From Opitutus terrae PB90-1 (GTDB taxonomy: Bacteria; Verrucomicrobiota; Verrucomicrobiia; Opitutales; Opitutaceae), in assembly GCF_000019965.1 (NCBI RefSeq), contig NC_010571.1, positions 4,659,001-4,723,000 of the forward strand: 64,000 nucleotides of DNA. Reading direction: 5' to 3'. A program made the translations under genes and the position numbers. The number at the start of each line of letters is the position of its first letter. The first letter of the stretch is position 1. The notes beneath the pieces were generated by a model. It was not told where the DNA came from and did not search any database. It saw only the letters and a program-made list of their open reading frames with translations. Below are positions 534 through 19,889 of this stretch, in pieces.

Positions 534-2362
534 ACCTTTCCCTCGCGCGCAAACTGCAGCTGCTCGTCGCGATTCCGCTCGCGGGCGCCTTGATCTTTTC
601 CGGCATCGAATGGGTTCGGGCGCTCGCCGCCGTGCGGCAGCTCAAGCGAGTCGCCGCGTCCGTCGAGCTCACCGCCGATCTCGCCGCCGTGCGCGCCGGT
701 TTGCTCGCAGAGCAACGCGAGTCCTGGGACCTTTACACCGACGCGAACCGGCTCATCACCTATCGCCGCAACGCCGAGCTAACGGCGGATGCCGTGCGCC
801 GGGTGGCCGCGCGGCTCAATCAGGGAAGTGCGCTCGACCAGGACGTGCGCGACGCCGTCCGGGCGCTGCTCACTGCATGCGACGGATTGCGGGAAGCACG
901 AGACTATTTCAGCACGCGGGGGCCGGAGGCCCGCCGGATCGATCCGCAGGCCTTGGCGCTGCGCGCACGCTACGGCGAGGTGATCGAACAGCTGCTCTTC
1001 CTCGTCTTCCGGCTCAACCAGGAAACCGACGCGGCGTCGCTGCGCGGGCGCCTCGACGGGCTCGTGTGGTTTGGCCGGCTCGCGCTGGCTGCCGAATCCG
1101 AGCGCACGTGGTATCAGCGTGGTTTCGCCGAGGAGCAGCTGACCGTCGCGAGCCTGATCCGCGTTCAGAACGTCACCGCGCAACGGCGCTATTTCGCCTC
1201 CAACGCGGTGCTCATGGCGCCGGCGGAACTGCTGGAATATTGGAACGGGCTGCTCGCCCATCCGGTGTACGCCGGCACCGACGCGCTGGCCACCGACGCC
1301 TTCAACTATTCCGCCCCCGAGCCGGTCCCCTTCAAGCGCGCGCTCGGCGCGGAGTGGACGCGCCTCACCCAGGAACGCACTCAGTTGCTCGATACGGTCG
1401 AGCCTCACCTTTTCATCGAACTGCACGGCTTCCTCGGCACGGCGCAACAGGCGGCGCTGCGCCATCTCGCGCAGCTGTCCGGCGCGATCGCGCTGCTGGT
1501 CGCCGTCGCCGTGGCGATCGCCGCTTGGTTTATCCGCCGGATCAAACGCGAGCTGCGCACAGCCGTCACCGGCCTCGACACCAGCACCGCGACGATCGCC
1601 CATGCGGTGAACGCCTCGTCCGAAGCCGCCCAGCGGCTCGCCGCCGGCGCGCTGAAGGAAGCCGCTGGCGTGGAGGAGACCGGCTCCGCCCTCGTCACGC
1701 TCACCTCAACCAACCAGCAGAACGTCACGCTGGCCGACCAGACGGTGGAGCACATGAACGAAACCGGCGCGCTCGTCCGCAACTCGCAGAGCACGATGCA
1801 AACGCTGTCGACGGCCATGCAGAAGATCTCCGACTCGAGCAAAGCCACGACCCGGATCGTCAAAACGATCAACGAAATCGCCTTTCAGACGAACATCCTT
1901 GCGCTCAATGCCTCGATCGAGGCCGCCAGCGCCGGCGAAGCGGGCACGGGCTTCGCCGTCGTGGCCGAAGAAGTGCGCAACCTCGCCAAGCGCTCCTCCG
2001 AGGCCACCGCAGAGACCGCGCGGCTCGTGGACGAGGTCCACGCGGCCATCGCCAGCGGTAACCGGCTCACCGCCGAGGTGGAAGCGGCGCTGCGCGACGT
2101 CGAGGCCAATTCGGCCCAGGCCGGCGAACTGATGCAGAGCATCCGTGCGGCCTCGCAGCAGATGCTGCAAAACATGCAGCACATCAACACAGGCAATCGT
2201 TCCCGGGAGGCGATCAGCCAGCAATCGGCGCAGGTGGCGGACCACAATGCCGCGACGGCCGCGGCGATCACCCGCGAGACCGAACAACTGCAGGCCACCA
2301 TCGCCCGTCTCGAGCACATGCTGCTCGGTCTGCACGACGCGGCGGCGGCGGCGGCAATCTAG
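530..2362 (+). CDS. Methyl-accepting chemotaxis protein with NIT-like periplasmic sensor
   Basis: This is a full-length transmembrane chemoreceptor of 610 residues. A first membrane helix (about residues 9-27) and a second (about 316-335) flank a roughly 285-residue helical periplasmic domain. That domain's LLAEQRESW and [11 protein letters not shown] segments resemble nitrate/nitrite-sensing (NIT) domains; this assignment is tentative. The cytoplasmic part has the MCP signature around residues 449-480 ([18 protein letters not shown], then [18 protein letters not shown]), which is the CheA/CheW-contacting tip. The protein ends in a short Ala-rich stretch with no methylation-enzyme docking pentapeptide. 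It overlaps the preceding MCP by 4 bases. Its TAG stop lies in the terminal CTAG of a dispersed palindromic repeat. Confidence 0.92.
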
Positions 2363-2503
2363 CCCTGAAATTTCATGAACAGGAGTGAAGCTCAGCCCGA
2401 ACTTTCCGTCCGCCTGCGGCGGAGCGACCTGGTCGCGGCTAGCCCCGACAGAGTCGGCCCGGAGGGCGGACATTTCATGAATCTCATGAAATATCCGGGC
2501 TAG
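2359..2503. repeat. Dispersed CTAG-bounded palindromic element, copy A
   Basis: This is an intergenic element of about 145 bp whose ends are imperfect inverted repeats. The left end reads CTAGCCCTGAAATTTCATGA; the right end reads TCATGAAATATCCGGGCTAG. The interior shares long identical blocks (GGAGTGAAGCTCAG, TAGCCCCGACAGAGTCGGCC) with a second copy at 19755-19889. It encodes no protein. The TAG stop of the upstream chemoreceptor lies inside its left terminus. Size, termini and absence of an ORF are consistent with a MITE or REP-type non-autonomous element, but no transposase for it is in the window. The remaining sequence to 2639 shows nothing I recognise. Confidence 0.8.
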
Positions 2504-17179: not shown

Positions 17180-18076
17180 ATGCCTCGAAAGATCAGCTTC
17201 CTCAACTACAAGGGCGGAGTCGGCAAGACTTCGCTGATCGTCAACACCGCCGCCTGCCTCGCGCGTCTCGGCAAGCGGGTGTTGCTTTTGGATTTCGACA
17301 CGCAGTCCAACGCCAGCATTTGGCTGATGCGACTCGAGCGCTGGAACAAGCTCAATGCCGACGGCACCGGCGCCATCTATTCAATCTTCGAGCCCGGCCG
17401 CGTGCAGGTGAAGGACCTCGTGATCCGCGACGTGCTCGAGAACAAGGACGGCGAGAAGCTCCTGCCCGGACTCGATCTCGTGCCGACCACGTTCAATCTC
17501 GTCGACCTCGAGGGCGAATACCGCTCCGACGCGAAGCGGCCCGCCTACGTCCTCTTCCAGGAACAGCTGGCGGCGATCGAGCACGGGTACGATTTCATCC
17601 TCTTCGATTGCCCGCCGAACATCCTGCGCGCGTCGCAGTGCGGCGTGTTCTGCTCGAACGAAATCTACGTGCCCGCGAATCCGGACGCGCTCAGCCTCAT
17701 CGGCTTCACGCTGCTGATCGACAAGCTGCACAAGTTTCACGCGCTGTCGGCCAGCTTCCGCCGTTCCACCATGGGGCCCGCCGCCCAGGTGCAGGGCGTG
17801 ATCATGAACGCCATCAAGGCGGGCAGCGACATCGAGGTGCCCAAAATGCGGATGCAGCTCCGCCTGAACCAATTCAAGTCCGCCCGCCGCGTCGCCGCCA
17901 CGGCGCGAATTTTCGATGCCCAGATTCGCGACGCGATGATCGTGCGGCGCGCTGTGACCTTGGGCCTGCCCGTCAACCTCGTGGCGCACGATGCCGGCGC
18001 CAACGACAACGACACCGTCGTCGGCGACTACCGCAAGCTGGCCACCGAACTCATTCATCATGCCGATACGTTCTGA
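17180..18076 (+). CDS. ParA/Soj-like ATPase
   Basis: A 298-residue deviant-Walker ATPase of the ParA/MinD superfamily. The Walker A motif NYKGGVGKTS has the signature Lys11 and catalytic Lys16; switch I is DFDTQSNAS and Walker B is FILFDCPPN. Such proteins form ATP-dependent dimers on DNA or membrane and position chromosomes, plasmids or large complexes. No ParB gene or parS-like site follows. Instead two unrelated proteins are encoded immediately downstream, the first overlapping by 17 bases. This argues for an orphan ParA dedicated to another cargo rather than chromosome segregation. Confidence 0.9.
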   Translation: MPRKISFLNYKGGVGKTSLIVNTAACLARLGKRVLLLDFDTQSNASIWLMRLERWNKLNADGTGAIYSIFEPGRVQVKDLVIRDVLENKDGEKLLPGLDLVPTTFNLVDLEGEYRSDAKRPAYVLFQEQLAAIEHGYDFILFDCPPNILRASQCGVFCSNEIYVPANPDALSLIGFTLLIDKLHKFHALSASFRRSTMGPAAQVQGVIMNAIKAGSDIEVPKMRMQLRLNQFKSARRVAATARIFDAQIRDAMIVRRAVTLGLPVNLVAHDAGANDNDTVVGDYRKLATELIHHADTF

Positions 18077-19001
18077 CCTGCAGTGGCTGATCGACTCGTC
18101 GCAGCCCTCCGCTCCCGCCGCACCGGCGGCCGCCTCCTCTCCTGTCTGTGCCATGAACACCACGCCCTCCACCCCCAGTACCGTCGCCAAGGAATGGGAC
18201 CAGCTTCGCACTGCGTTTGCCTCCTCCTTGCTCGTCAACACTCCGCTCCACAGCCTGGCGCAAAACCTCGACGGCCTCGAGTGGCCGATCCGGGGTGCCA
18301 ACGAAACGCCCGCGGCCTACATCGATCTCGGCTACGACGAGCTCGTCTCGACGCTGACCAATCGCGGGCAGCCCGCCGCCGCCAGCCTGCTCGTGCAGAT
18401 CCTGCGCGAGACGCTCGCCTTCGATCAGCCGTTCGGGGAGATGGTGCAGCAGACCGAAGCGTCCGCCGCCCGGGACAATCCGCTGCTGCGCAATCTCGCG
18501 CGGCTCGGCATCCCGGAGAATTTCCCGCTCGAGCTTACGAGCCTTGACGACTCGGCCCGGCAGCTGTGCCGGCTCGAAAGCGTCGGCACGATCGGCGAGT
18601 TCGCCGTCTTCGCGCAACGCCTGGCGCAGGGCGTGATCATTGGCGGCGATCTCCGGCGCATGCTCAACGCGCTCGCGCATTTCGATGAAGCCACGCTCGC
18701 CACCATCGTGCCGTTCCGCGTCGGCTCGACCGGCGTGCACCTGGCCGAGGCCCTCGCCCAAGCGGCCCGCAGCCCCACGCCGGAGGAGCAGGTCGCACGC
18801 ACGTTGGCTTGGTTCTCCGCCGAGTTCGCCTCGTGGCGCGAACAGGCGGCGGCGGATCGCAAGTTCCTTCCGCGCCAATTCTCGTTCCTCAGCGATCTCC
18901 GACTCGAGGAACACCTCTCCCAGCTGCTCGCGCCGCACCTGCGGTCGGCTCGCCCCGACTCGACGTTCGGCGCGAAGCTCCGCCGTTGGTTGCACCTGTA
19001 A
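18060..19001 (+). CDS. Unrecognised protein in the ParA operon
   Basis: A 313-residue protein with no motif I recognise. An Ala/Pro/Ser-rich N-terminus of about 30 residues precedes a mostly helical body (DQLRTAFASSLLVNTPLHSL, AFDQPFGEMVQQTEA, LRRMLNALAHFDE). It is soluble, with no signal peptide or membrane segment. The ATG at 18060 overlaps the end of the ParA-like gene by 17 bases, implying translational coupling; a later ATG at 18153 (MNTTPS) is possible. It is a candidate partner or cargo adaptor of the ATPase, by context only. Confidence 0.75.
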   Translation: MPIRSDLQWLIDSSQPSAPAAPAAASSPVCAMNTTPSTPSTVAKEWDQLRTAFASSLLVNTPLHSLAQNLDGLEWPIRGANETPAAYIDLGYDELVSTLTNRGQPAAASLLVQILRETLAFDQPFGEMVQQTEASAARDNPLLRNLARLGIPENFPLELTSLDDSARQLCRLESVGTIGEFAVFAQRLAQGVIIGGDLRRMLNALAHFDEATLATIVPFRVGSTGVHLAEALAQAARSPTPEEQVARTLAWFSAEFASWREQAAADRKFLPRQFSFLSDLRLEEHLSQLLAPHLRSARPDSTFGAKLRRWLHL

Positions 19002-19037
19002 CCTCCCGCCCGACGACGCGCCCGCCGCCCCCACCGC

Positions 19038-19673
19038 ATGAAACCGCTCACCGAGACGCTGACCGTGCCGCCGTTCCCCACGCGCTATCCGATCCGGCCG
19101 CCGCTCGCGCTGCCGCGCCGCAATCGCAGTGAGGTGATGCCCGAATGGCCGGCCGGCGTGGATGCGGTGCCGGGACTCTCAGCGGACGCGGAGCGCGCGC
19201 TCCGGCGACTCGAAAACTCCCTCGCCGACCGCGAGCGCGCCGTCGCGGAAGCCGAAGCCCGGCTCGCCGAGCGCAACCGGGACCTCGCGGAAATGGAAGC
19301 CTTGCTCCATGCGCGCGAATCGTTGCTCGCTTCGTCATTGCTGCGCCACCCCGACAAACGCGGGATCGTCACGATTCGCGAAGCCGAGGCGCTCAACGGC
19401 CTGAAGGCCGAGCTGGATCAACAGGAGGCCAACCTGCGCGAAGCGCGCCAGACGATGCGCGATCGGGAGAAATTCATGGAGGAGAGCGAAACCCGCCTGT
19501 TCCAGAAGGTGCAGGAGCAGCAGGAAAAGGAAATGGCGCTCGAACAGCGCGAGGAGGATCTCGCGGCCCGCGAGGCGCGGCTGCAAGAGGCCGCCAGCAT
19601 GCTCGGCGCCAGCGGCCCCTCGACTCAGCCGGCGCCCGCGCCGAAGCGCGCCTACGACGAGTGGCGTGAATAG
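19038..19673 (+). CDS. Coiled-coil protein in the ParA operon
   Basis: A 211-residue soluble protein. A Pro-rich N-terminal 45 residues precede about 140 residues of near-continuous charged coiled coil (repeated blocks such as LADRERAVAEAEARLAERN, LKAELDQQEANLREA and KEMALEQREEDLAAREARL). A short Pro/Ala tail ends AYDEWRE. It starts 36 bases after the preceding gene. Coiled-coil partners are common in ParA-driven positioning systems, which makes a scaffold role plausible, but nothing in the sequence fixes it. Confidence 0.8.
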   Translation: MKPLTETLTVPPFPTRYPIRPPLALPRRNRSEVMPEWPAGVDAVPGLSADAERALRRLENSLADRERAVAEAEARLAERNRDLAEMEALLHARESLLASSLLRHPDKRGIVTIREAEALNGLKAELDQQEANLREARQTMRDREKFMEESETRLFQKVQEQQEKEMALEQREEDLAAREARLQEAASMLGASGPSTQPAPAPKRAYDEWRE

Positions 19674-19754: not shown

Positions 19755-19889
19755 CTAGCCCGGAAATTTCATGAACGGGAGTGAAGCTCAGTTCGAAATT
19801 TCCGTCCGCGGGCGGCGCAGCGACCTTGTCGCCGCTAGCCCCGACAGAGTCGGCCCGGAGGGTGATATTTTATGAAATATCCGGGCTAG
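19755..19889. repeat. Dispersed CTAG-bounded palindromic element, copy B
   Basis: A second copy (about 135 bp) of the element at 2359-2503, with termini CTAGCCCGGAAATTTCATGA and TGAAATATCCGGGCTAG. It shares the blocks GGAGTGAAGCTCAG and CTAGCCCCGACAGAGTCGGC. Its right terminal CTAG contains the stop codon (TAG read on the minus strand, 19886-19888) of the adjacent TPR-like gene, mirroring the situation at copy A. Confidence 0.82.

Follow-up and report, generated by a model that had tools for sequence, protein, structure and literature searches.

A conserved ParA–Mid–CC cassette in Opitutus terrae and its relatives: a candidate intracellular positioning system

The ParA–Mid–CC cassette and its conservation

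In the genome of Opitutus terrae PB90-1, a single contig of 5,957,605 bases, we analyzed a 64,000-nucleotide stretch (NC_010571.1, 4,659,001–4,723,000; hereafter the window) in which three genes on the forward strand form a conserved operon. The first (positions 17180–18076, starting at ATG 17180) encodes a 298-residue ParA-type ATPase, as judged by a Pfam match, its motifs and an alignment of orthologs. The second (18153–19001) encodes a protein of 282 residues from its likely start, which we call Mid and define by ortholog starts, co-occurrence with ParA and an AlphaFold model. The third (19038–19673) encodes a 211-residue protein, CC, with a basic, proline-rich N terminus (LALPRRN), a coiled coil and an acidic C-terminal end (YDEWRE).

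The open frame of Mid extends upstream to ATG 18060, and read from there the protein has 313 residues and the gene overlaps that of ParA by 17 bases, as a preliminary description of this DNA had reported. The first ~31 residues of this longer frame are missing from most orthologs, and for that reason we place the start at ATG 18153, which leaves a gap of 76 bases after ParA. In a same-genus relative, the Mid start falls at the position of window residue 31, with a ParA–Mid overlap of 4 bases; two of the 21 rows (L046 and L050) start further upstream, but with letters unrelated to those of the window. The 17-base overlap therefore holds as a reading of the frame from 18060, but is probably an artefact of start-codon choice. 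Among 70 relatives in which both genes are whole, the ParA–Mid gap has a median of 21.5 bases (range −38 to 80, with an overlap in five), and the Mid–CC gap has a median of 8 bases (n = 73), a spacing that is operon-like throughout. Our scan for promoters and terminators gave no signal above chance.

The three genes are conserved together far beyond chance. Among 57 related genomes, Mid was found in 25 by single-sequence search and in 24 by profile, the additional match (G038) being a divergent locus with a 42% identical ParA beside a 22% identical Mid and no CC. The 24 genomes with a Mid profile match are exactly those with a close ParA ortholog (63–100% identity, E below 1e-100), and the other 33 have neither gene at the thresholds used. 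CC stands at the cassette in 22 of the 24; of the remaining two, G032 has its cassette truncated at the end of a contig and G056 carries a divergent copy (27% identity, E 9e-5). Two further genomes (G022 and G031) hold CC fragments near contig starts with no ParA or Mid match, and their cassettes may have been lost in assembly gaps.

A wider comparison gave the same picture. Searched against a collection of genomes from 84,980 species, the Mid alignment recovered 128 relatives, of which we took the best 80 (L059–L138) as a named set. These loci are labeled Opitutaceae, Opitutae, Opitutia or Verrucomicrobia, and include the genera Opitutus, Rariglobus, Candidatus Didemnitutus and Candidatus Synoicihabitans. 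Mid has ParA upstream in 79 of the 80, the remaining locus being cut by a contig end, and CC downstream in 77; all three genes stand in order on one strand in 76. The named set shares several genomes with the relatives set (L033–L056), so the two sets of counts are not additive. Two broken or divergent Mid rows and three ParA rows were left out of the search profiles for the named set, and 9 ParA, 1 Mid and 6 CC sequences of the 80 were left out of its sequence sets because they were cut, frameshifted or absent. In an even draw across the phylum, Mid occurs in 41 of 387 genomes; every one of these belongs to the order of the window, and some carry two or three copies. The preliminary description had made its proposal of a positioning system depend on two points, the joint occurrence of the three genes in relatives and a middle protein outside any ParB-like or chromosome-segregation family, and the first of these is borne out here.

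Identity to the window proteins in the first alignments was 41–82% for ParA, 20–53% for Mid and 26–51% for CC, and mean column identity was 71, 51 and 48%, respectively, the three alignments holding different rows. The Mid profile was built from 34 of 35 non-redundant sequences plus that of the window, and the CC alignment from 31 of 40 plus that of the window. We found no prior description of a ParA–Mid–CC cassette in open-access papers. A role as a defence system was rejected, as PADLOC gave just short ATPase and coiled-coil matches. One metagenome-assembled genome of an Opitutus sp. carries Mid and CC in a single frame of 469 residues (L061 6998–8404, the same locus as L033); Mid has lost its C-terminal part in this frame and the transition between the two looks like the result of an indel, and we did not use the frame as evidence of a fusion.

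More distant relatives show that the core unit is ParA plus Mid, a pair that often persists without a recognizable CC in divergent families. Fifteen further loci comprise nine with ParA beside Mid, of which two have a recognized CC, four related ParAs picked for lacking Mid, and two with a Mid homolog and no ParA match. The three-gene unit that had been described thus keeps its order in close relatives, but its basic element is the pair, with CC lost or unrecognized in several lineages. The four ParAs without a recognized Mid alongside (L159–L162) are 44–49% identical and have no known partner; they lack the RDAxxVRRAVxLGLP signature found in most others and form a clade of their own in a poorly resolved tree. 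Five of the loci, four from family f11 (L163, L164, L165 and L173) and one from family f22 (L168), have a protein-kinase gene, then a gene for a conserved protein of ~240 residues, then ParA and Mid, with no recognized CC. The kinase domain (PF00069) was confirmed in both kinase genes tested (L164 and L168), and the ~240-residue protein matched no family. This arrangement suggests that a kinase-linked version of the ParA–Mid pair exists.

Features of the three proteins and of the surrounding region

The ATPase carries a deviant Walker A motif (NYKGGVGKTS, with KGGVGKTS at residues 11–18), switch I (DFDTQSN, 38–44) and Walker B (ILFDCPP, 140–146), all three as intact as had been claimed from the first reading of the DNA, and it matches PF13614 at 114.9 bits against a cut-off of 27. 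It belongs to the ParA/MinD ATPase family. Matches above the Pfam cut-offs to CbiA (48.3 versus 25.4 bits), CBP_BcsQ (35.3 versus 21.3) and MipZ (31.5 versus 20.7) were read as superfamily overlap; the NCBIfam models for BcsQ, MinD and plasmid RepA scored far below their cut-offs. Identity to the window protein is 62–82% in 20 of the 21 other alignment rows and 41% in the last. A basic stretch at 17840–17902 (PKMRMQLRLNQFKSARR...) is kept in the Mid-linked ParAs in our alignment and is a candidate nucleoid-binding surface. The O. terrae genome holds a further ParA at C1:693310–693882 (L057), between genes that we read by eye as coding for a cytochrome c and a hydrolase.

Mid gave chance-level matches only in Pfam and belongs to no NCBIfam family, in keeping with the earlier statement that it belongs to no recognized family, and a search of its profile against PDB sequences gave no convincing match (best E 0.045). 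We rejected T2SSF, which touched 8 of 35 members below the cut-off (best E 0.019), and baeRF_family10, which touched 2 of 35 (best E 0.0033). No ParB-like family was matched in these family searches, and the second point on which the preliminary proposal hung is borne out as well. The AlphaFold model, built with 35 sequences, is confident and all-helical (mean predicted local distance difference test score (pLDDT) 90.8, predicted template modeling score 0.66). Its first helix spans residues 8–22 and its longest 76–107, with no long N-terminal coiled coil. Searches with the whole model found no clear known fold (Foldseek best E 0.66; VIA best Z 4.2, with a root-mean-square deviation (rmsd) of 5.5 over 82 aligned residues), a result that does not by itself prove a new fold.

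The central domain of Mid (residues 104–193; 18462–18731), modeled alone with a pLDDT of 80.5, is possibly a helix–hairpin–helix domain like the C-terminal domain of the RNA polymerase α subunit. The fold matches are weak (Foldseek best E 3.0; VIA best Z 4.1, rmsd 3.1–3.6 over 57–58 aligned residues); the top 12 of 15 structural rows all belong to proteins known to carry helix–hairpin–helix domains, namely RNA polymerase chains, Y-family polymerases and RAD51C. Designed armadillo-repeat proteins also matched this domain, with E down to 6.9e-7, and we make no claim from them because the score sums near-identical repeats of ~8 bits each, none significant alone. Natural armadillo proteins reached 0.07 or worse against the domain profile, and the structural rows point elsewhere.

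In the first conserved helix of Mid, Trp15, Arg19, Phe22 and Ser25 are invariant in all 78 rows with a residue at the position. At the C terminus, a basic aromatic tail (18939–18998) with a GxFxRLFxK-like end is a candidate membrane anchor on the strength of the model and of its composition. Its net charge is positive in 82 of 82 sequences. A test for a basic, hydrophobic and aromatic tail, the criteria of which were fixed after the tails had been viewed, was passed by 78 of 79 Mid sequences, 73 of 587 control open reading frames, none of 71 ParAs and none of 74 CCs; the controls were frames with matches in at least five loci and less than 12% Arg, and may include some shadow frames. MinD is anchored in the membrane by a C-terminal basic aromatic tail, which that of Mid resembles, and by this analogy the Mid tail would bind the membrane. 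Judged by sequence, Mid appears to constitute a new family of ParA partners.

CC is confirmed as a protein of 211 residues. The median net charge is +4 for the first 35 residues (19038–19142) and −11 for the remainder (77 sequences), and proline makes up 18% of the first 45 residues and 3% of the remainder, an enrichment that fits the earlier description of a proline-rich coiled-coil protein. A motif of the L.L..RR type is present in 68 of the 77 sequences and a DEFxE-like end in 56; the coiled coil is judged by eye and from weak SMC-type matches below cut-off. According to PMC7993993, PomX has a basic N-terminal end, a Pro-rich part (a Pro/Ala-rich region) and a coiled coil, and basic N-terminal extensions grafted onto diverse domains make activators of ParA/MinD ATPases. 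CC appears from its sequence to have this PomX-type layout, the coiled coil itself being judged by eye, and by analogy with PomX its first 35 residues are a candidate ATPase-activating peptide and CC a putative activator of the ParA ATPase.

Around the cassette, relatives share recurrent neighbors: a gene weakly matching GreA/GreB, a TonB gene, a LytB gene and one for an exported protein that has no Pfam match. The first of these is transcribed divergently, lies beside the cassette in many relatives (for example L066 4996–5487) but not in the window, and matches PF01272 at 22 bits against a cut-off of 26.9. The exported protein and LytB each cluster across 47 of 81 loci, and one merged cluster of minus-strand frames upstream covers 66. 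The 25 largest neighbor clusters contain no window gene, and the window's own neighbors matched one other locus each; neighbor genes were accordingly dropped as a clue to cargo. Separately, a 21-base repeat (CTAGCCCGGANNTTTCATGAA) occurs in four copies within three mismatches, against 0.01 expected, at window positions 2359–2503 and 19755–19889. The copies form two inverted pairs ~114–124 bases apart, REP or REPIN-like, and one pair lies just after CC.

Candidate functions of the cassette

We favor, with modest confidence, the interpretation that the cassette is a ParA/MinD-type positioning system in which one ATPase works with two dedicated partners that form a cluster, probably at the membrane. 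Its basis is the gene order, the joint occurrence, the conserved motifs and the confident predicted structure of Mid; binding, ATPase activation and membrane attachment we infer from these. In its ATP form, ParA would dimerize and sit on the nucleoid, probably via the conserved basic stretch. Mid would be the constant, all-helical partner, with a conserved Trp-x3-Arg in its N-terminal helix and a basic aromatic tail that probably dips into the inner membrane as that of MinD does. CC would dimerize through its coiled coil, and its basic, proline-rich N terminus would probably stimulate the ParA ATPase, like the N-terminal peptides of PomX, ParB and MinE. The cluster of Mid and CC would then follow or make a ParA gradient and so place a cargo, most likely at the membrane.

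Several observations weigh against this interpretation. The co-occurrence of ParA and Mid owes part of its strength to common descent, since it comes mostly from a single family and the relatives of that family, and two Mid homologs (L166 and L169) have no nearby ParA match. CC is absent or unrecognized in L109, L113 and G038 and in seven of the nine further ParA–Mid loci, so it cannot be the sole activator everywhere. In the f11 paralogs of Mid, Arg19 is displaced, with WDKxAxR instead of WDxxR as judged by eye, and its role there is doubtful. The Mid tail has a hydrophobic moment no greater than that of shuffled versions of itself (0.50 versus 0.49), and the membrane claim thus rests on composition, charge and likeness to MinD. 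Finally, no cargo was identified among the families profiled for it (FliG, CheW and BMC).

Five outside families were profiled across the genomes (FliG_C, CheW, MinC_C, HTH_ParB and BMC). The O. terrae genome has FliG, CheW and bacterial microcompartment (BMC) shell proteins, with five CheW matches, none of them in the window. Among the 24 genomes with the cassette, FliG gave no match in 10, CheW in 10 and BMC (PF00936) in 8; G009 (98% complete) and G028 (84%) lack a match to any of them, and some cassette genomes are incomplete. Since each is missing from 8–10 of the 24, flagella, chemoreceptor arrays and microcompartments are not obligate cargos. What stands of the dedicated cargo system originally proposed is therefore the new partner family and the kept gene order; its cargo was not found, and the three obvious ones are not obligate.

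MinC was found in none of the 57 genomes by a search that finds it in 6 of 14 known control genomes. This absence, together with the three-part composition, the PomX-like layout of CC and an ATPase more conserved than its partners, as PomZ is relative to PomX and PomY (PMC7993993), would fit a second, independently built division-site selector like PomX/Y/Z, in which CC would act as PomX, Mid as PomY plus a membrane link, and the cluster would recruit FtsZ. We regard this as unlikely: 33 of the 57 genomes have neither MinC nor the cassette, which is thus no general replacement for Min, and the Mid model has no counterpart of the 100-residue N-terminal coiled coil described for PomY. A more far-reaching form of the positioning hypothesis is speculative and stands a small chance of being right, if a slightly larger one than the division-site selector. 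It holds that ParA, a membrane-anchored Mid and a PomX-like CC would be a three-part machine of independent evolutionary origin, which would set the site of division, or some other midcell landmark bound to the membrane, in the Min-less members of the order; Mid would found a new partner family coupling the nucleoid gradient to the membrane, and the sister-lineage pair would be tied to a kinase instead of to CC.

The cassette might also do no positioning, with ParA acting as an ATP-dependent regulatory switch on Mid and CC in the manner of FleN, perhaps in envelope signaling. The protein-kinase gene ahead of the f11 and f22 pairs and the divergent, weakly GreA/GreB-like gene beside the cassette in many relatives speak for a switch, but the conserved basic stretch and intact ParA motifs would favor nucleoid binding, and the layout of CC is that of known ATPase activators; we think a switch rather improbable.

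ParA-type ATPases commonly segregate DNA, and many helix–hairpin–helix domains bind DNA, so that Mid, whose isolated central domain aligns best with domains of this kind, could be a new centromere-binding protein in a DNA-partition system. Much of the evidence runs the other way, and we consider partition improbable to about the same extent as a switch, or marginally more so. The central domain is about neutral (median net charge −1). None of the 57 relatives has more than one Mid match, some other genomes have two or three, and 72,556 plasmid records gave none. No parB lies beside ParA, whose neighbors are Mid and CC; the claim that parB is lacking stands for the locus but fails for the genome, where one ParB domain is encoded at position 3,630,547, ~1.05 Mb from the cassette. 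ParB was found in 51 of the 57 genomes, including 23 of the 24 with the cassette, in one of these weakly. As had also been claimed, parS-like repeats are missing from the locus: the 341 bases upstream of ParA hold no direct-repeat family and three GC-rich imperfect inverted pairs (75–81% complementary), the region downstream of CC holds two two-copy repeat families of 10–12 bases, and matches to the parS consensus with three mismatches number two over the whole window, where 1.24 would be expected, and one of them spans the Mid stop (18988–19003). Chromosome partition is probably not the task of the cassette ParA, because the genome has a separate, by sequence Soj-like ParA at 4.605 Mb.

Positioning of a known large cargo is very improbable: flagella, arrays and microcompartments are indeed cargos of ParA-like ATPases (PMC9178275, PMC10241942) and their marker proteins are encoded in the O. 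terrae genome, but their absence from so many cassette genomes would leave room for a lineage-specific use at most.

Comparison with known ParA/MinD-type systems

The ParA of the cassette recalls the orphan ParAs of the PpfA/TlpT and ParC/ParP systems, which likewise work with a dedicated partner and without parB or parS (PMC9178275). Those systems belong to chemoreceptor arrays, whereas the CheW genes of O. terrae lie outside the window and CheW is missing from a substantial share of cassette genomes. With MinD/MinE/MinC the cassette shares the C-terminal basic aromatic tail, but carries it on Mid and not on the ATPase, and it occurs in genomes in which our search found no MinC. McdA/McdB, which positions carboxysomes, combines a ParA-type ATPase with a partner whose N-terminal extension is basic (PMC7993993), as ParA and CC may do; here a second, larger partner is present, and a third of the cassette genomes have no BMC shell match.

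The closest resemblance is to PomX/PomY/PomZ, which positions the division site in Myxococcus xanthus with one ParA-type ATPase and two partners (PMC7993993, PMC13170346). CC is laid out like PomX, and in both systems the ATPase is far more conserved than its partners (PMC7993993). PomY is described as an N-terminal coiled coil, HEAT repeats and a disordered region (PMC13170346), a layout from which Mid differs in having no long N-terminal coiled coil in the model, the HEAT repeats having had no separate search. Mid differs further in its MinD-like tail and in being confined, in the phylum draw, to the window's own order. PomX and PomY were compared by description, and Pfam and NCBIfam gave no such name for Mid or CC. 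In outline the cassette would work like Pom or Mcd; we do not class it as a member of either, because the PomY layout and a link to BMC were both looked for and neither was seen.

A ParA-type ATPase with just one activator is a familiar arrangement; PomX/Y/Z is singled out in PMC13170346 for using two. A two-partner cassette in another phylum, with one partner that bears no family name and possibly a membrane tail, would allow the coupling of ParA gradients to new cargos to be tested, and would bear on how membrane-bound structures are placed in Min-less bacteria. The joint presence and absence of its genes over many genomes makes the assignment of the partners easy to test.

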